A program made the position numbers and the translations under genes. From a virus, in IMG/VR virus record IMGVR_UViG_3300022602_000036, positions 62,001 through 126,000 of that record: 64,000 nt of DNA. One strand, 5' to 3'. The notes under the pieces are model-generated. The model saw only the letters and a list, made by a program, of their open reading frames with translations, ran no database searches and was not told the origin of the DNA. Below are positions 3,083 through 58,037 of this stretch, piece after piece (position 1 is the stretch's first letter; each line of letters starts with the position of its first letter).

Positions 3083-3703
3083 ATGTCAAATTTAGTCCCA
3101 ATGGTAGTAGAACGTACAAGTCAAGGCGAACGTGCCTATGACATTTATTCACGTCTACTTAAAGATCGTATCGTGATGTTAGATACTGATGTTAATGAAC
3201 ATACAGCCAGTTCAATCGTAGCACAGATGTTATACCTAGAAGCAGAAAATTCAGAAGCAGACATCTTATTCTATATCAACAGTCCAGGTGGCAGTGTAAC
3301 TGCTGGCTTGGCTATCTATGATACTATGCAGTTTATCCGTCCAGATGTGCGTACTATTGTTCTTGGGCAGGCATGTAGTATGGGTAGTTTCCTTGCTCAA
3401 GCAGGTCATCCAGGCAAGCGTTTTGTCTTACCAGAAGCACGTACAATGATCCATCGTGTTAGTTCAGGTACTCCTGGCACACGTGGTAGTGTACACGTAC
3501 AAGATCTACAGTTTGAAGATGCTAAACGTAGTTTTGAAGAAAGTGTGCGCATTAACAAACGTCTAACTGAACTCTATGTCAAACATAATACGCAAGGTAA
3601 GACCTACGAAGAATTGTTTGACACTATGAAGTTTGATACATTCTTATCAGCAGAAGAAGCAGTGGCCTATGGGCTTGCTGACGAGGTGATTACAAAAAGA
3701 TAA
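3083..3703 (+). CDS. clpP: ATP-dependent Clp protease proteolytic subunit ClpP
   Basis: 206 aa, a full-length ClpP. The serine protease triad is visible: S99 in [10 protein letters not shown]124 in TMIHR and D185 in [11 protein letters not shown]. The oxyanion-hole segment is SPGGS at 67-71. ClpP forms a 14-subunit barrel that degrades proteins fed in by ClpA or ClpX. The same window encodes a ClpA-like unfoldase at 55734 and a tmRNA at 7600, so it may be part of a phage tag-and-degrade route. It starts directly after the zinc-finger gene (AGGAAG ribosome binding site) and its stop overlaps the next start (TAATG). Confidence 0.96.
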
Positions 3704-7269: not shown

Positions 7270-7587
7270 ATGTCTAGAACACGTAGACGTAAGCGTGGCG
7301 ACCACACTGATCTAGCTTGGCAAACTAGAGAAATGATCAAAGTCCCAGGCAGATTAATTTGGGTGCCAATGGACCCAAAAACCAAGCAGTATAAACGAGT
7401 AGTAAACAAGTATCACAGTGATGCAGGCACACATAAGTTTAACAACTGTCCACAAGGATGGTGGGTTAACATGGTAATGCAAAGACCACATCGCCGTGAT
7501 GCTAAAAGAAAAATCCAAAAATGGTTGTTGGATCCAGAGTATGAAGTTATACTAAATGCTAAGGAACCACTTCCATATTGGGATTAA
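7270..7587 (+). CDS. Basic hypothetical phage protein
   Basis: 105 aa, strongly basic at the N terminus (MSRTRRRKRGDHTD) and with PHRRDAKRKIQKWL near the C terminus. This suggests nucleic-acid binding, but no family is recognised. GAGGAG precedes the ATG. It ends 13-15 nt before the tmRNA acceptor segment; the tmRNA promoter may lie inside its 3' end. Confidence 0.68.
   Translation: MSRTRRRKRGDHTDLAWQTREMIKVPGRLIWVPMDPKTKQYKRVVNKYHSDAGTHKFNNCPQGWWVNMVMQRPHRRDAKRKIQKWLLDPEYEVILNAKEPLPYWD
7525..7553 (+). promoter_or_regulatory. Possible promoter for the tmRNA gene
   Basis: TTGTTG at 7525-7530 and TATACT at 7548-7553, 17 bp apart, lie within the end of the preceding gene. The start would fall near 7560, upstream of the acceptor piece. 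Confidence 0.4.
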
Positions 7588-7626
7588 AGAATTGTTGTAT
7601 GAAGCGAGTCCAAAAACGGACAAGAC

Positions 7627-7654
7627 ACGGGTTCGACTCCCGTCGCCTCCACCA
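7627..7654 (+). ncRNA. tmRNA acceptor piece: T arm and CCA end
   Basis: 5-bp T stem (ACGGG/CCCGT) with TTCGACT loop, acceptor strand, discriminator A and encoded CCA. No matching 5' acceptor strand lies upstream, which rules out an ordinary tRNA. The partner lies downstream at 7683-7689. A short GTCC/GGAC hairpin (about 7608-7622) precedes it. Confidence 0.88.
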
Positions 7655-7739
7655 AAGCATTTTTGAAAGAGAGTTTTTCGTTGGGGGTGCCATGGTATCG
7701 ATTGACGGCTTAGTAGGCAAGTGGACAACACAGTAGGCG

Positions 7740-7856
7740 ATGACTGTAAATCAAGCAAAATCCGTAAATGCAAAAGCATCTACACTTGGTACTGTAAAAG
7801 TATCTATGGGCCGCGGTTTCCGCTTTGCTCGTGGTACAGAAGCAGTAGCTGCCTAA
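7740..7856 (+). other. tmRNA tag reading frame
   Basis: Frame MTVNQAKSVNAKAS... ending FARGTEAVAA with TAA at 7854. In a tmRNA only the part after the resume codon (about 7755 or 7770) is translated. The hydrophobic AVAA end fits a ClpA/ClpX-type degradation signal. It could also be read as a 38-aa gene from the ATG at 7740, but that ATG has no ribosome binding site. Confidence 0.65.
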
Positions 7857-7902
7857 GAAACAGCAACCACGGGGCAGTTATGCCTTGTTACCCAAAATAA
7901 CC

Positions 7903-7922
7903 AAACCCGCTTCGGCGGGTTT
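7903..7922 (+). terminator. Terminator hairpin after tmRNA
   Basis: AAACCCGC-TTCG-GCGGGTTT, an 8-bp stem with a stable TTCG tetraloop. There is no long T tract; a second small CCTCTAAAAAGAGG hairpin follows. Confidence 0.75.
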
Positions 7923-7940
7923 GCTACCTCTAAAAAGAGG

Positions 7941-7969
7941 TTGACAACAATACCAAATGATACTATAAT
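7941..7969 (+). promoter_or_regulatory. Sigma70-type promoter
   Basis: TTGACA at 7941-7946 and TATAAT at 7964-7969, 17 bp apart. It drives the two-gene operon at 8037-9757, leaving about a 60-nt leader. Confidence 0.88.
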
Positions 7970-8036: not shown

Positions 8037-9335
8037 ATGTCACAAGCAACATCTTGGGTTAATCACTTGGCTGCTAACCCTGACCCAAAATATCCTAATC
8101 AAGGATACCCAGAAGTAATTGCTCAACGTTTTGGTAAAGATTTGGACCAAATACTTGGACCAGTATCCCAACGACGACCATATGACCAAATTAGTCAAAC
8201 AGAAGTAGAAAGCAGACTTGAATTAGTTGACGAAAAACTATTCCTTGCTAATATGCGTGGGGGCAAACAGCAACTTCTACAAACATTTTATGATTTGTTA
8301 GAGCACTTAGAAGATACTAAAGCATTATGGGGTATTGATATTCCTTTGATGAATATCATGCCAATGGAAGGCGTTGAACGCCACGCTGTAGAAAAGTTAT
8401 GGATTAACTATCGTTCACAGCGTACATTATATGCACGTCACATTGTTCAGATTGTTTTTAAATTTGATCCATGGAGTGTGTTTAATGGCATTGGGCGCAT
8501 GACTAAAGATTTAAAACGACTGTTTATCAATGATGCCCAACACCGTACTATTGCTTGTATGATTTTTGGTATTAGATATATGTCTGTACAATATCGCATC
8601 AGTGACGATGAAAACGTAGACATTGATCAGTTCTGTGCTTGTAATGTAGATAACCTACCGTCAGAAGCATACGATAACTATCGCAACCGTAAAGAACGTT
8701 GTGATGCTTATATCCAGGCTGATCGTCCACCGATCCGTGAAGATAAGTTTATGTGGGATATCGCACAATGGGCTCAACGTTGGGCTGTTAATATTTGTCG
8801 TGTAGGGGATCCTGTAGCTAACGGTGCAAGAGGTATTAGCCACATGGCAGATTTGTATAAATCTGCACGCATGGGATTTGACGTAATGGACGCTGCGGCA
8901 GCAGTGCTAGTTAAAGTTTACCCAAATGATCCAATGAAGTCAGCAAACTTAGTTGGACTATGCGAGTTATTGAAACAACAAGAACCCGAGTGGTTAGATG
9001 TAGACTACCAAGGTCCAAATAATTCAATCCTAAATCCTAAACTAGAGGATCTAGCTGAGATAATTGGAAAACGTTTTGGTAATGTAAACAAAGGTCAAAA
9101 TTCTGGTACATATCACGACCAATGTAAGCAAGCAATTAACAATTGGTATAAGGAAGCGTTTAATACTTTAAGTAACCCAAGTGGTATTGCACCTGAGGTA
9201 AAAGTTGCACACGCTACATATCACGTATATGATTCTTACAGTACCAAATATAAACTTACTGTGCCTAAAACAGAAAAAGGTGAGACATACAAAGTATTGT
9301 TATCATTCACAGAAGGATACAAAAAATGGATGTAG
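8037..9335 (+). CDS. DGQHR/ParB-like domain protein
   Basis: 432 aa. Residues about 155-195 (MTKDLKRLFINDAQHRTIACMIFG...) place an N-D-A-Q-H-R motif in a strand-helix setting like the DGQHR/ParB-type nuclease or NTPase fold of DndB- and ParB-like proteins. The rest is helical, without a second recognisable domain. It overlaps the HNH gene downstream by 10 nt, so the two are co-expressed from the promoter at 7941. AAAGGAG precedes the ATG. The role (nuclease, sensor or partner of the HNH protein) is not known; the fold call is tentative. Confidence 0.6.
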   Translation: MSQATSWVNHLAANPDPKYPNQGYPEVIAQRFGKDLDQILGPVSQRRPYDQISQTEVESRLELVDEKLFLANMRGGKQQLLQTFYDLLEHLEDTKALWGIDIPLMNIMPMEGVERHAVEKLWINYRSQRTLYARHIVQIVFKFDPWSVFNGIGRMTKDLKRLFINDAQHRTIACMIFGIRYMSVQYRISDDENVDIDQFCACNVDNLPSEAYDNYRNRKERCDAYIQADRPPIREDKFMWDIAQWAQRWAVNICRVGDPVANGARGISHMADLYKSARMGFDVMDAAAAVLVKVYPNDPMKSANLVGLCELLKQQEPEWLDVDYQGPNNSILNPKLEDLAEIIGKRFGNVNKGQNSGTYHDQCKQAINNWYKEAFNTLSNPSGIAPEVKVAHATYHVYDSYSTKYKLTVPKTEKGETYKVLLSFTEGYKKWM

Positions 9336-9873: not shown

Positions 9874-11795
<1,922 letters not shown>

Positions 11796-14426: not shown

Positions 14427-17400
14427 ATGGCAAGACAAGCAATTAAACAATACATATTTGTACCAGGCAACTCAGGGGTTGGCTATGTGCAGATACCTGG
14501 CAACTATTCAAATGGTCAGGTCATAGCGATCTTAGATGCTACAGCACAGACATTCCTTTACAACTTTGCTGATGCAACTTTACAGGGTGTGATTACTTGG
14601 ACACAAGGTCCAAACAGTAACTTCCCAACTAGTATTGATGGTGTAACTACTATTACTTTAAACCTTAATACTACACAATATCCTAGTACTGATAAATTAG
14701 CCGTTTACGTTGAAGCTCCATATCAAGTAGATCGCCCATTTGCTCGTGATGCAGTTGAACGTTTACGTGTAGCTAACCCACAGTCACTAATTGACGCTGA
14801 CTTTGAGTACGGCTTACAAAACACTAAATGGCAAAGTCTATTTACTAACAATGATAACCCAAGTATCTATGAAGTTCCAGGTTCAGACGTTTATGCTAAC
14901 ACAATTTCATACATTAGTTTCTTAGGTAACAGCCTAACATCAGGTGCGGTGGCAGCTGGTTCAAGTAACGTACAGATTATTTCAAACGGCTTTTCACAAG
15001 CAGGTCCAGGTAACAACCAACCTAACTGGACACAAAATGACTTTGCACTATTATTAAACAGTGACCCTGTGGGCAAACCAACACTGACCACATACTTAAC
15101 AACCAACGTAGCTTCGCAGAACCAACGTGGTCTAACAGTGGTTAGCTCAACTGGATTTAATCCAGGTGATAACGTTGTATTGATTTATGCTAATGCACAA
15201 GGTGTTACAGCAACTACATCAACAACTAGTAGCTTGACAGCTGGTCAAACAGCGTTAGCAGTAGCTTCAGGTACACCTATTGTCAACGGTAGTATGATTG
15301 CTGTTAACACTGGTAACATACAATATCCAGTAGAATTGATGGTAGTTACAGCAGGTGGCGGCACAAGTTCGCTAACAGTGGTGCGTAACAGATGGAACAC
15401 TAACTCAGCCAACATTGCTATTGCTTCAGGCGCAGGTATTAGTGTGGTTGGTCAAGCAGAAATGGCCAACGTGGTCAGCGTGCCAAACTCAACAACTATT
15501 AACGTTAACCGTGGCTACCAAAATACATCACCACAAGACAGTATGTACGCTAATACTATTATTACCAAAGCCTACTGGGACGCAGGTGGAGTAAGTGGTA
15601 CCAACGTTGAAATTGTACAGATGACAACAATTGGTACAGCACAGGCTAACATTGCGCAGTTTACACGTGGTGCGATGGGCACAACTCCAATAGCACAAGC
15701 AGGTGCAGGCAGTTTAGTTTTACGTTTATCAGGTATATTCACAGCTGGTAATACTAGTGTTCCATTGGTGGCTATGAACTTAAAAGGTCATAGTTTCAAT
15801 AAATTCTCAGCTATTAGCACACAAAACCACTATACTCCTGTAACAGAAGGACAATATCAAGTCAGTGATGTGTATACTAACTATCTAGACTATGTACCTA
15901 AGAACCCACCAAATACAGCAATTGGTTATCAAGTTAACCGTTGGGACACTTATATTCGTTATGCAGGCTTCTACGGTACAGCTAGCTTGCCACAACTTTC
16001 ATTTACCACAGATGGTGCTAACCCAAGTACAATTACAGCTACTAGTGCTTATGCACATGGTCTATCACCAGGTACACCAATCTTAGCTAACATAGCCGCT
16101 TCAGGCGGTACAGTATTTGGTTTTGGTCCAGCGGTGATTCAGACTATTCCAAGTGCAACCACGTTTACATTTGTGGCCAGAGGTACTGTTACGGGACCTG
16201 TTACAGGTGCTTGTTATGTACGTCCAAACTCATTCTTCACACACCGTGCGGCAGACGGTGGGGTTAACCTAGGTACTGGTACACCACACCATGGTGCGGC
16301 AGCAGCTAGACAGACTAAGAAATATTTCCGTTACCAATCTGGTAAAGGTATTATGTGGACATCAGGTACACTGTTAGGCAGTAACTTTGACATTACCAGC
16401 ATCTCTGCTACAGGTACAGGCGTTGGTAACGTTATTAACATTACCACAGACACAGAACATCAACTACAAATTGGTGCTAATGTTTTAGTGCAACAAATCA
16501 ACACTCTAGGCTATAATGGCTACTATCTAGTACAACAGGTTACTGGATTTAATAGCTTCCAATGTAACGTAACCACACCTTTAGGTAGTACTACTCCGGT
16601 AGTGGGTAACCAACCTAAAATAGCTACAGTTACCTGGGCAGGTGCGAGTGTACGTGCTGGTTTGTTTGATGATCAAAACGGCGTGTACTGGGAAAACAAC
16701 GGAGTAACAATCAGTGTAGTCCTACGTGCAGCTACATTCTATATGACAGGCACAGTGTCAGTTGAGGTTGCTACTAACTTGTGTGCAGGTGACGGTACTT
16801 GCTTGTTTACACAACAGTTTGTTGCAGGTGATAAAATTATCCTACGCGGTATGACACACACTGTAACATCAGTTATTGACGACAACAACCTAACAATTAG
16901 TCCAGTATGGCGCGGCTTAACTAACCAAGTGCGTATTAAACCAAGTAAAGTTATTGAACAACGTTATCCACAAAAATATTGGAACCTTGATCGTCTAGAC
17001 GGCACAGGTCCAAGTGGTTACTTGTTAGATGGCACTAAGATGCAGATGTTGATGATTCAGTACACATGGTACGGTGCTGGTTTCATTGACTTTGGTGTTC
17101 GTGGCCCACGTGGTGATTATATTTTCTGCCATAGAATTATGAACAACAACTTTAACTATCAAGCATATATGCGTTCAGGTAACTTACCGGCACGTTATCA
17201 AGCGATTAATGATACACCATATCAAATCTTGTTAGGTAACAGTGCTACCTATGGTGCTAACTATAGTGGCATTACATCAAGTGATACGACATTCTATATA
17301 CAAGATGCTACACACTTCCCAACACCAACACCAACGCAACCAGTGTGGGTATTGATTGATAACGAAATATTAAAATGTACAGGTATTACCTACGGTAACA

Positions 17401-18305
17401 TTGTTTACTCACCAACTACTTACAGTAACGTACAACCAGCTACAGTAACAGGTGTGACACGTGCAGCTAGCTTTAACCTGTTCCAAGACGGTAAAAACAC
17501 TACATTCTCAGCAGGTAATGCTCAGCCACATAGTGCTAACGTTTCAGTACGTGTAATTAACAGTACATCAGCACCGAGCTTGAACCACTGGGGTAGTGCA
17601 GTTATCCTAGACGGCGGCTTTGACACTGACCGCGGTTACGCTTATACGTACTCAGTAGCTAACGTTGCGTTCCCAACAGGTAGTTCAGCAACATCTAGCA
17701 CTATTACAGCGTTTGCAATGCGTCTAGCACCAAGCGTAAGTAATCAAATTCCAGGTGACTTAGGTACACGTGATCTAGTTAATCGTGCGCAGTTGATTCT
17801 ACAAAACATGATTATTAACTTCTCTGGTAACAACGTCAGCCAAACAACTGGTGCACGTTACCTAGTTGAAGGTATTCTAAATCCAAATAATATCAGTACT
17901 ACCAGCACAACTTGGAGTTACTTATACAACCAGGCATTTAACGCACAGAACAATCCATCAAGTGCTATTCAACCAAGCTACACACAGGTGGCTTCAGGTA
18001 ATATCTTAGGCGCAGCTCAATACACTGGTTCATTGAGTTTCAATGGTTACAGTTACGCTAGTGGTGGTACAAGTTGGGCCACAGGTGGTGAACGTTTGTT
18101 TGCGATTCCAGTTAACTATACCAACTCAGGTCAGCTAGACTTGAGTCAAGTTAAACAGATTGGTAACAGTGGTATTCCAGGATTTAACATCTATCCAGAC
18201 GGTCCAGAGTTACTAGCTATTAACGTTACTGCTCTAGTACCAACAGCAGCTGGTGTTAACGTTACAGGTGAAATTCAAGTTCAGTGGAACGAATCACAAG
18301 CATAA
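14427..18305 (+). CDS. Very large tail/baseplate virion protein
   Basis: 1292 aa, beta-rich throughout, with many Gly, Asn and Thr residues and few charged ones. No enzyme motif is seen. FRYQSGKGIMWTSGTLLGSNFD near residue 635 matches a segment I recall from large marine T4-like tail proteins. The likely role is a long fibre or baseplate appendage that contacts the host. It is the last gene of the 11926 operon, followed by a strong terminator. Confidence 0.75.
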   Translation: MARQAIKQYIFVPGNSGVGYVQIPGNYSNGQVIAILDATAQTFLYNFADATLQGVITWTQGPNSNFPTSIDGVTTITLNLNTTQYPSTDKLAVYVEAPYQVDRPFARDAVERLRVANPQSLIDADFEYGLQNTKWQSLFTNNDNPSIYEVPGSDVYANTISYISFLGNSLTSGAVAAGSSNVQIISNGFSQAGPGNNQPNWTQNDFALLLNSDPVGKPTLTTYLTTNVASQNQRGLTVVSSTGFNPGDNVVLIYANAQGVTATTSTTSSLTAGQTALAVASGTPIVNGSMIAVNTGNIQYPVELMVVTAGGGTSSLTVVRNRWNTNSANIAIASGAGISVVGQAEMANVVSVPNSTTINVNRGYQNTSPQDSMYANTIITKAYWDAGGVSGTNVEIVQMTTIGTAQANIAQFTRGAMGTTPIAQAGAGSLVLRLSGIFTAGNTSVPLVAMNLKGHSFNKFSAISTQNHYTPVTEGQYQVSDVYTNYLDYVPKNPPNTAIGYQVNRWDTYIRYAGFYGTASLPQLSFTTDGANPSTITATSAYAHGLSPGTPILANIAASGGTVFGFGPAVIQTIPSATTFTFVARGTVTGPVTGACYVRPNSFFTHRAADGGVNLGTGTPHHGAAAARQTKKYFRYQSGKGIMWTSGTLLGSNFDITSISATGTGVGNVINITTDTEHQLQIGANVLVQQINTLGYNGYYLVQQVTGFNSFQCNVTTPLGSTTPVVGNQPKIATVTWAGASVRAGLFDDQNGVYWENNGVTISVVLRAATFYMTGTVSVEVATNLCAGDGTCLFTQQFVAGDKIILRGMTHTVTSVIDDNNLTISPVWRGLTNQVRIKPSKVIEQRYPQKYWNLDRLDGTGPSGYLLDGTKMQMLMIQYTWYGAGFIDFGVRGPRGDYIFCHRIMNNNFNYQAYMRSGNLPARYQAINDTPYQILLGNSATYGANYSGITSSDTTFYIQDATHFPTPTPTQPVWVLIDNEILKCTGITYGNIVYSPTTYSNVQPATVTGVTRAASFNLFQDGKNTTFSAGNAQPHSANVSVRVINSTSAPSLNHWGSAVILDGGFDTDRGYAYTYSVANVAFPTGSSATSSTITAFAMRLAPSVSNQIPGDLGTRDLVNRAQLILQNMIINFSGNNVSQTTGARYLVEGILNPNNISTTSTTWSYLYNQAFNAQNNPSSAIQPSYTQVASGNILGAAQYTGSLSFNGYSYASGGTSWATGGERLFAIPVNYTNSGQLDLSQVKQIGNSGIPGFNIYPDGPELLAINVTALVPTAAGVNVTGEIQVQWNESQA

Positions 18306-29686: not shown

Positions 29687-30096
29687 CCATGCACATGTTA
29701 CCGCCTATGTATTCAACAACAGGCAAGAAAAAAGGTAAACAGAAATTCCGTACAGCAGAACAGGCTAACAAAGCTCGTCGTAACGCAGAATCGTGGCAAC
29801 AATTATTGGAGAAATATGATGCTAAAGTGGTGGTGGACAAATCTAAGTCCAACAGAAAAAATACTAGTAAAAGTGTGGTTACTAGTGGGAGTGATTGGCG
29901 TAGCCGTGTTGACCCTAGCCGCCTTACTGATCATATACCAAGTCGTGACACAGGTGTCGCTGTAGCCGCTCGCCCAGCAGACAAAGTCTACACAGGTGAT
30001 GCTATGATTGGTATTGGACAACTACATAAGTCAAACGGTATTCCTGTATTCCGTCAAGAAGATGCTGTCGATGTTAGTAAAATGAGAAGAGGATAA
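29683..30096 (+). CDS. Conserved T4-like phage protein, basic
   Basis: 137 aa. The N-terminal MLPPMYSTTGKKKGKQKFRT, then AEQANKARRNAESWQQLLEKY, matches a family I recall in marine T4-like phages, where the first ~50 residues are a lysine-rich conserved block. Function unknown. Confidence 0.68.
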   Translation: MTMHMLPPMYSTTGKKKGKQKFRTAEQANKARRNAESWQQLLEKYDAKVVVDKSKSNRKNTSKSVVTSGSDWRSRVDPSRLTDHIPSRDTGVAVAARPADKVYTGDAMIGIGQLHKSNGIPVFRQEDAVDVSKMRRG

Positions 30097-55733: not shown

Positions 55734-58037
55734 TTGGCTGACATGCAAAACAATCCTGAGATAGAACACATCATTAACACTGCCTGTGTTCTAGCCAAAG
55801 ACTACAAACATGAATATGTTACACTAGAACATCTATTAATTGCCTTAATAGAATCTAAAAACTTTAACAAGTTAGTCACTGACTATGGTGTTGATGTAGA
55901 AAATCTTCTACGCGACTTATATGATTATATTGGTCGTCAAACACATCTAGTCAACGAAATTAAACCAGATCTAACCCCAATGCGTACACACAGCCTAGAG
56001 CGTGTGTTTAATCGTGCATTTACACAGGTCTTGTTTAGTGCTCGTGATCAAATGGAACCTATTGATTTATTCTTGAGCATTAGTCAAGAACCTAATAGCC
56101 ATGCAGCATACTTTATGCTCAAATGGGGTATTAACCGCAAACAACTAATTGACTTTTTTGCAGAACAAAACAGCGATCGTTTTAATCGTGCTAAGAAAGT
56201 TGAAAGTACTAAGAAAGACTTTGCTGATAAGATTCTAGCAGAATACTGCACAGACTTAAACGCACAGGTCGTAGAAGGTAAGATTGATCCCGTAATTGGT
56301 CGTGCTTATGAATTAGAAGAAATTGCACAGGTTCTAGCACGTCGTAATAAATCCAATGTACTTATGATTGGTGATCCTGGTGTGGGCAAGACTGCTATTG
56401 CAGAAGGCCTAGCATATAAGATTGTCAATGGTGAAGTACCAGAATATTTAAAACCTTACACAGTATTCAACTTAGAAATTGGCAGTTTACTAGCTGGTAG
56501 TAAGTATCGTGGCGAGTTTGAAGAAAAACTCAAAGATGTACTACACGCCCTAGGTCAAAAAGGCAACTCAATCTTGTTTATTGATGAAGCACATCAAATG
56601 CAAGGTGCTGGGTCAGGTGGCTCTAGTCAAGTAGACTTTGCTAATATGCTTAAACCAGCATTGGCCAAGGGCAAGATTAAAGTTATTGCATCAACTACGT
56701 TTGAAGAGTATACTCAATCGTTTGAAAAAGATCGTGCGCTAATGCGCAGATTCTACAAACTAAATGTAGATGAACCTACGCCAGCTGTGGCCAAAGATAT
56801 CTTGTACGGATTAAGAACACACTTTGAAAAATTCCACGGCGGGGTTATCACAGATGATGCTATTGAAGCCGCAGTGGATCTAAGTGTACGTTATCAAACA
56901 GACAAACGTTTGCCAGACAAGGCCATTGATTTGATTGACATGAGTTCAGCTAAACTTAAGATTCAAAATCCAGACTTTGTAGTTACTAAACTAGACATTG
57001 TTGATACTATCAGCAAAGCCACTAAGATTCCTAAAGAGAATTTGTTAAGTGAAAAAGCCACAGAAAGTCTAGTTAACCTTGAAGCTACAATCAAGGACAA
57101 ACTATACGGCCAAGATAGTGCTGTAGATCAAGTATTAGAAAAGATCTATGTTGCCAAAGCTGGTATGAAATCACACAACAAGCCTGTAGGTAACTTCTTG
57201 TTCCTAGGACCAACTGGTACTGGTAAAACAGAACTATGTAAACTACTCAGCGAATCGTTGAGCATGAAACTCTTACGCTTTGATATGAGTGAATATCAAG
57301 AGAAGCATGCTATGGCTAAACTTATTGGTGCTCCCCCAGGCTATGTTGGCTATGAAGACGGCAATCTAGGTGGTGGCTTATTGATCAGTGAAATTGAACG
57401 TAACCCACATGCTATTATCTTGTTAGATGAAATTGAAAAAGCACACCCAGATATCAGTAACTTATTGTTACAGATCATGGATGAGGGCTACATTACAGGA
57501 TCTAACGGTAAGAAAGCAGATGCACGTCACTGTATCCTTATCCTTACTTCAAATCTAGGTGCTGCAGATGGTGAACAAAATGCTATTGGTTTTGGTAGAT
57601 CATTGCAAAAAGAAGGCACAGATGACGAAGCGGCTAAGAAGTTCTTTAAACCAGAATTCCGTAACAGACTTGATGCTGTAGTTAAGTTTGGTAAACTTGA
57701 TAAATTGGCTATGAAGAAAATTGTTGTCAAATTCTTAAATGAATTAAATGACCTACTAGAAGAAAAGAATATCAAAGTTCGTTCATCAGAAGCCCTAGTA
57801 GATCACTTAACAGAAGTTGGATTTGATCCTGCAATGGGCGCACGCCCGCTAGCACGTAAGATTAACGAACTTATCAAAGTACCGCTAAGTAAGAAAATCT
57901 TATTTGAGCACATAGAATCTGGTAGTGTAGTTACCGCTGATTACAGTGAAGATGTTGTTAAATTTATTGTAATTCCGCCTGCACTTGATCTATTAGAAAA
58001 CAAAACCGTTGACGAAAACGGCTACATTGTAGCATAA
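55734..58037 (+). CDS. clpA: ClpA-type AAA+ unfoldase
   Basis: 767 aa from TTG 55734 (AGGA 7 nt upstream). Two AAA+ modules: Walker A GDPGVGKT (213-220) and B LFIDEA (281-286), then GPTGTGKT (492-499) and B ILLDEI (562-567). The N domain is a Clp_N repeat. There is no middle coiled coil, which excludes ClpB, and the ClpP-docking loop IGF is at 618-620 (NAIGFGRS). It unfolds and feeds substrates, including tmRNA-tagged proteins, to ClpP. The length compares with E. coli ClpA (758). Confidence 0.93.

Follow-up and report, generated by a model that had tools for sequence, protein, structure and literature searches.

The window analysed here, 64,000 nucleotides long, corresponds to positions 62001-126000 of the viral record IMGVR_UViG_3300022602_000036 (149,159 bases). 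On its plus strand lies a permuted tmRNA gene (7593..7925, bounded by the long-helix strand and the 3' hairpin), delimited by the covariance models RF04321 and RF01850 and by ARAGORN, with the 3' end placed by reading. Its acceptor and T-arm half precedes its 5' half: the 5' strand of a long helix (7593..7597), which in the structure line of the RF04321 alignment pairs with the 3' strand at 7726..7730, is followed by a T-arm ACGGG/TTCGACT/CCCGT (7627..7643; sequence reading and comparison with relatives) and by the acceptor 3' half (7644..7654), made up of CGCCTCC at 7644-7650, A7651 and an encoded CCA at 7652-7654. A 28-nt spacer (7655..7682), presumably removed as in the rest of the family, leads to the acceptor 5' half GGGGGTG (7683..7689), which bears the G of the G3-U70 pair, and to the D-loop region CCATGGTATCGA (7690..7701; RF04321 alignment and loop comparison); across the 15 parsed genes of the motif-tag group described below the spacer measures 26-194 nt. 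Further downstream are the tag frame AKASTLGTVKVSMGRGFRFARGTEAVAA with its stop TAA (7770..7856; ARAGORN and tag comparison), the conserved motif KVSMGRGFRF inside it (7797..7826; pattern scans and alignment), a 3' element CGGGGCAGTTATGCCTTGTTACCC (7870..7893) with a hairpin conserved in the 16-gene alignment and a likely, predicted pseudoknot, and on the 3' side of the gene a G+C-rich hairpin (7902..7923) that scans as terminator-like on the minus strand only. No promoter-like site was found on the plus strand between 7000 and 7590; a perfect TTGACA-17-TATAAT stands just 3' of the tmRNA at 7941-7969 (+), ahead of an open reading frame at 8037-9335.

A first-pass annotation had read this locus as a phage-borne circularly permuted tmRNA and had proposed covariance-model and permuted-mode ARAGORN searches as the check. 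Those searches agree with it: RF04321 (tmRNA_permuted) matches 7593-7856 over its full model length at 112.8 bits (E 3e-21; gathering cut-off 47 bits), RF01850 (beta_tmRNA) matches 7539-7890 at 98 bits (cut-off 84 bits) with a poorly aligned part after the tag, and the single gene that ARAGORN calls in the window is a permuted tmRNA at 7562-7947. The coordinates it had assigned to the two acceptor strands are likewise exact, with 7/7 positions paired and a G.U at pair 3 (G7685-U7648). Fully paired 7/7 acceptor stems recur in 15 of 16 distinct related genes, in six sequence types and with G3-U70 every time (the sixteenth gene, L204, was left out of the stem parse and its pairing is by reading only); judged from sequence, a stem compensated across six types is more than chance pairing would give. 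The tag frame opens at a GCN codon and closes at a stop after a hydrophobic-alanine end. In light of these results the locus is almost certainly a permuted tmRNA gene, very probably one employed in trans-translation. That it is instead a decayed or captured remnant without function, as the poor fit of the beta_tmRNA model past the tag might suggest, is extremely improbable in view of the RF04321 score, the compensated stems in 15/16 relatives and a tag that is open and stop-ended in 24/24 motif loci.

The carrier belongs to the jumbo phages and to the wider T4 group. Its DNA polymerase is nearest to those of jumbo phages (Phosso 52%, Atu_ph07 47%, GAP32, CBB and PBECO4 42-44%), and the record also encodes a phrog_168 clamp loader, which we take to be of the T4 gp44 type; the earlier label 'T4-like' is a loose one. 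Also present are 28 tRNA genes at 40-49 kb of the record, GroES and GroEL (9874..11795, +; profile matches) and a 1292-aa virion structural protein (14427-18305, +) that is in part 43% identical to its counterpart in Synechococcus phage S-CAM1; a capsid candidate (L011:523-2439) was without match in named phages. Relatives of the record reach 320-357 kb, and the record may therefore be a fragment. Several of the IMG datasets presumably derive from freshwater lakes and bogs.

As a kind, a permuted tmRNA in such a phage is ordinary. The first-pass annotation knew of no well-described case, a statement that does not stand: the available text of PMC9004378 prints a two-piece tmRNA for the myophage Melnitz, beside T4-like transcription and replication genes, and Stenotrophomonas phage Marzo carries an annotated one, which together rule out the permuted phage tmRNA as a novelty. 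The same text counts 53 two-piece molecules among 133 unique phage tmRNA structures, drawn from 402 phages in 18,146 genomes, with 50 of the 53 of marine or aquatic origin. The accessible parts of PMC11915505 report an Rfam permuted model together with 79 unique bacteriophage tmRNA sequences and give 10 aa as the commonest tag length, and PMC4131195, as far as available, lists the phage tmRNAs known by 2014. For 23 records, either named phages or relatives picked through ClpA, ClpP or the motif, RF04321 gives a score over its cut-off in 19 and a match at E<=0.001 in 20. Eight of these viral records (G012-G019) had been represented by a tmRNA-free fetched locus; six of them exceed the RF04321 cut-off, G013 shows two weaker matches that belong to one tmRNA interrupted by an inserted reading frame, and a search of the G019 record with RF04321 gave no match.

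The present gene shares with bacterial permuted tmRNAs (RF04321, RF01850) the order of the halves, the G3-U70 stem, the T-arm, the long helix and the tag frame, but differs from them in a 28-aa tag with a fixed inner block and in a 3' domain that fits RF01850 poorly. Melnitz and related marine phages resemble it in that a myophage bearing T4-like genes has a permuted tmRNA, yet their description includes a glutamine riboswitch and an affinity to alphaproteobacteria, and the available text mentions no inner tag motif (PMC9004378). Marzo, with T4-related genes and an RF04321 match of 119 bits, differs in its ARAGORN tag VAANDDSYTVRIAA and in having no ClpA, ClpP, ClpS or ClpX match. What is new at the locus is a constrained decapeptide within the tag, beside a phage-encoded Clp set.

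The relatives provide a further view of the split architecture. Of 33 parsed tmRNAs, 26 combine a T-loop beginning with TTC with a D-loop whose TCGA region is preceded by GG, whereas in the remaining seven (L195, L214, L215, L220, L312, L313 and L314) the second T-loop base is G, with GGCAG, GGCGG or TGCGA replacing TTCGA, and always together with AG in the D-loop (Fisher 2e-7, ancestry ignored; L204 is outside the 33). Since the two loops lie in separate gene halves, their covariation supports the meeting of the halves, and the linked change amounts to a natural double check of tmRNA architecture. Three of these variant-elbow contigs (L312, in G013 at 218519-219064, L313 and L314) have a 342-nt spacer with a 101-aa frame at locus positions 1501-1806, separating the acceptor half from the 5' half. 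The frames are 74-100% identical, third codon positions account for 21/30 and 45/74 of the base differences, the viral-contig scan returned the protein from these three loci only, and PHROGs and named phages gave no match; by reading, the corresponding tags are ANDEQFALAA, ANDSLYAIAA and ANDSQYLVAVNA. A putative protein gene sits in the spacer of a split tmRNA in three contigs.

Other relatives show their own departures. Sinorhizobium phage Phosso (PV764938.1, 349596-350198, minus strand; L214, L315) has a permuted tmRNA with a spacer of ~410 nt at a site that is unannotated. In L094 and L205 ACTG follows the acceptor, so that CCA is not encoded; the 194-nt spacer of L191 holds an open frame of ~70 aa extending into the 5' half, and the L204 spacer a 36-aa frame, both without a PHROGs match.

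The tag itself has 28 residues and a net charge of +4. It opens with a hydrophilic segment, continues with the fixed block KVSMGRGFRF and finishes with a variable linker whose small hydrophobic end here reads AVAA. Among 80 ClpP-neighbour loci, chosen regardless of tags, ARAGORN found a tmRNA in 11, seven with KVSMGRGFRF (six distinct tags) and four with short tags; around ClpA relatives it found none in 80 loci. A strict DNA pattern for the block, with the serine alone left free, recovers 24 stretches in viral contigs, every one of which reads as a tmRNA tag (19 called by ARAGORN, four sharing a core that scores 91.6 bits in G001, and L204 by reading); they represent 15 distinct cores and 12 distinct tags. 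A thirteenth tag, AKASTTESAVKVTKARGFRFGGARVAAADAAFA, comes from an RF04321 match in a 355-kb contig reached via ClpA, in a diverged gene that retains KV-T-x-x-RGFRF. Relaxing the pattern, with CGN still demanded for the first arginine, raises the viral count to 34 stretches: the same 24, the diverged gene and nine frames without a called tmRNA. The strict pattern is absent from the prokaryote collection, where the relaxed one has 48 matches, with an ARAGORN tmRNA in 0/48 loci, bearing in mind that ARAGORN misses some variants (L195).

Searches for the peptide outside tmRNA tags were negative. KVSMGRGFRF has no match in the PDB and the tag none among named phages (tblastn, E<=10), short peptides being hard to detect in either way, and 'GRGFRF' is not mentioned in the open-licence literature searched. 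A copy of the motif from a protein was rejected, the best other six-frame window of the record scoring 27 against 60, as was the general explanation by an internal start at the ATG of the motif, because AAA stands at that site in the diverged gene. Two further kinds of tag were observed. L175 (IMGVR 3300026200_000139) and L184 carry another long tag, unrelated to the present one, ADFKANGNVTFVNFGAKLPTNEEFALAA, in a permuted tmRNA found by DNA pattern, and the tags of L113, L116 and L221 (G010, G011, G016), ANDSQFLMVA and ANDEQFLMVA, are unusual in ending in MVA and are followed by a double stop.

When 16 genes are aligned, the highest conservation of any 30-nt window falls on the motif (7797-7826), with a mean pairwise identity of 0.93, whereas windows over the T-arm and acceptor, printed every 10 nt, reach 0.75 at most. 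Residues differ in the motif in 45 of 1095 comparisons (4%) as against 48% and 45% in the two flanks, and where residues agree, synonymous differences amount to 14% as against 21% and 29%. Because nine of the 16 genes were found through the motif itself, only the set of seven found without it is free of motif bias; there, residue differences are 9% versus 58% and 55%, and synonymous differences 20% versus 30% and 44%. By these sequence comparisons the inner block is strongly constrained, mainly on the peptide, and we consider it likely that the motif is selected as a peptide; we weigh constraint on the peptide over constraint on the RNA at about three to one, and both may act.

The RNA side of that balance deserves attention. 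Were the motif mainly an RNA element, it would form a hairpin within the mRNA-like domain, serving to hold or shield the tag frame, and the peptide itself would be incidental. Several observations fit: a two-helix hairpin spanning the motif pairs in 94.8% of cells and shows two both-sided changes, values above those of slid controls; 99% of synonymous redraws of the motif fold less stably than the sequence present in the window; and the motif retains TCT, TTC and CGC, which are minor codons of the phage. As the hairpin overlaps the block and phage-rare codons are retained, part of the conservation may indeed be RNA. Residue change, however, is down about tenfold while synonymous change falls only to about half to two thirds of that in the flanks, whole-tag folding is unremarkable in 14/16 genes, the diverged gene alters bases but retains KV and RGFRF, and a helix between the two tag flanks is unsupported (354 of 2000 permutations reach it), all of which makes a primarily RNA-based role distinctly unlikely. 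Recent shared ancestry, or exchange of one tag block without selection, would also yield a conserved motif: the motif is carried by a single group of related viruses, whose tags in the alignment are joined to different tRNA-like parts in an exchange-like manner. The flanks of the same block nevertheless differ at 45-48% of residues, and synonymous sites within the motif vary, so that we regard this explanation as very improbable.

A peptide under selection invites the question of what might read it, and the same record encodes ClpA, ClpP and ClpS. ClpP (3083..3703, +; 206 aa) matches PF00574 at 217 bits (cut-off 20.2) and PRK00277.1 at 251 bits (cut-off 249), and falls below the TIGR00493 cut-off; the ClpA-like unfoldase (55734..58037, +; 767 aa) matches TIGR02639 at 822.7 bits, below its NCBIfam cut-off of 993, and its residues 7-736 align to E. 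coli ClpA; ClpS is encoded at record position 29705-29941. In alignment IGL of E. coli ClpA is replaced by IGF in the phage protein, at a site which we take to be the ClpP-docking loop, and the phage ClpP retains Ser, His and Asp, presumably the catalytic triad. ClpA and ClpX are readers of ssrA ends, and ClpS redirects ClpA. In the 23 related records, selected through ClpA, ClpP or the motif, ClpP occurs in 21, ClpA, always scoring under the NCBIfam cut-off, in 20, and ClpS in 19; the corresponding figures for the nine related canonical-motif records are 9/9, 7/9 and 7/9. All three are present also in records with short ordinary tags.

ClpX exceeds its cut-off in 10 of 24 records, namely G010-G016 and the three named jumbo phages, and in none of the 10 canonical-motif records (G000-G009), G017-G019 or Marzo. 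The association of the motif with ClpX absence is imperfect, since ordinary tags also accompany a lack of ClpX (G017 and G018) and the variant motif occurs together with ClpX in G015; ancestry confounds it, and the incompleteness of contigs weakens it. A search for SmpB gave nothing in the record itself (0/1) or in the 23 related ones (0/23), with positive controls detected, and host SmpB would therefore have to serve; as viral records may be fragments, the absences of SmpB and ClpX are weak ones. The jumbo phages PA5oct, Phosso and Atu_ph07 similarly encode their own ClpA, ClpP and ClpS (ClpA 40-43% and ClpP 54-62% identical to those of the present phage), but they encode ClpX as well, and PA5oct and Atu_ph07 have no RF04321 match; Phosso has one, with tag ANDNVSTKVALAA. 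Elsewhere, the freshwater phage P26059A has ClpP according to the available text of PMC5964084, and pf16, considered as a possible tmRNA phage, was dropped because PMC5587285, as far as available, reports an SspB analogue and no ssrA-like element.

The long ssrA tag of Mesoplasma and Mycoplasma is another comparable system. Work by Gur and Sauer in 2008 is said to have described it as adapted to Lon. It resembles the phage tag in being long, and there the tag diverged to suit a particular protease; it differs in belonging to a bacterial one-piece tmRNA and in its peptide, and the reader of the phage tag is only putative.

In light of the above, we propose that the locus encodes a working permuted tmRNA with a phage-specific tag whose inner block may act as a docking site, and give this reading a probability of roughly 0.65. 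By analogy with the family, the precursor would be cut at both spacer edges to yield a CCA-ended acceptor piece and an mRNA-like piece starting at 7683, the two being joined by the acceptor stem and the long helix. Host AlaRS would charge the molecule through G3-U70, host SmpB would deliver it to stalled ribosomes, and translation would restart at GCA 7770 and append the 28-aa tag. The inner block could then dock a phage-encoded partner, the simplest candidate being the phage ClpA-ClpP pair with ClpS, whereby products of stalled ribosomes would pass to a phage protease. That the motif is read by phage ClpAP(S) is nonetheless somewhat unlikely in our estimate, the link to ClpA being guilt by association, and the full private tag-and-destroy circuit, in which the phage tmRNA writes KVSMGRGFRF plus an end degron and phage ClpA-ClpP-ClpS reads them, is a shade less likely still.

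The tag may also be an ordinary one, whose hydrophobic-alanine end is read by host ClpXP or ClpAP, with the motif acting, for example, on the ribosome exit tunnel, on nucleic acid or on a protein of the host. In each of the 13 distinct tags a small hydrophobic stretch and an alanine form the end (AVAA, ALAA, VLA, TFA or AFA), the short-tag relatives indicate that the motif is dispensable for a phage tmRNA, and the motif is basic and aromatic; against this, neither a known partner nor a similar peptide was found in the six frames of the record, the prokaryote collection, named phages or the PDB, and we hold this possibility to be less likely than not.

In the motif group, conservation of the tag peptide above that of the tRNA-like core suggests that the tag itself is under selection. 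If a private circuit does operate, ribosome rescue in the infected cell would feed a phage-controlled protease, and a tag read by phage ClpAP would represent a virus-owned route of protein quality control and a possible orthogonal degradation tag for use in bacteria.
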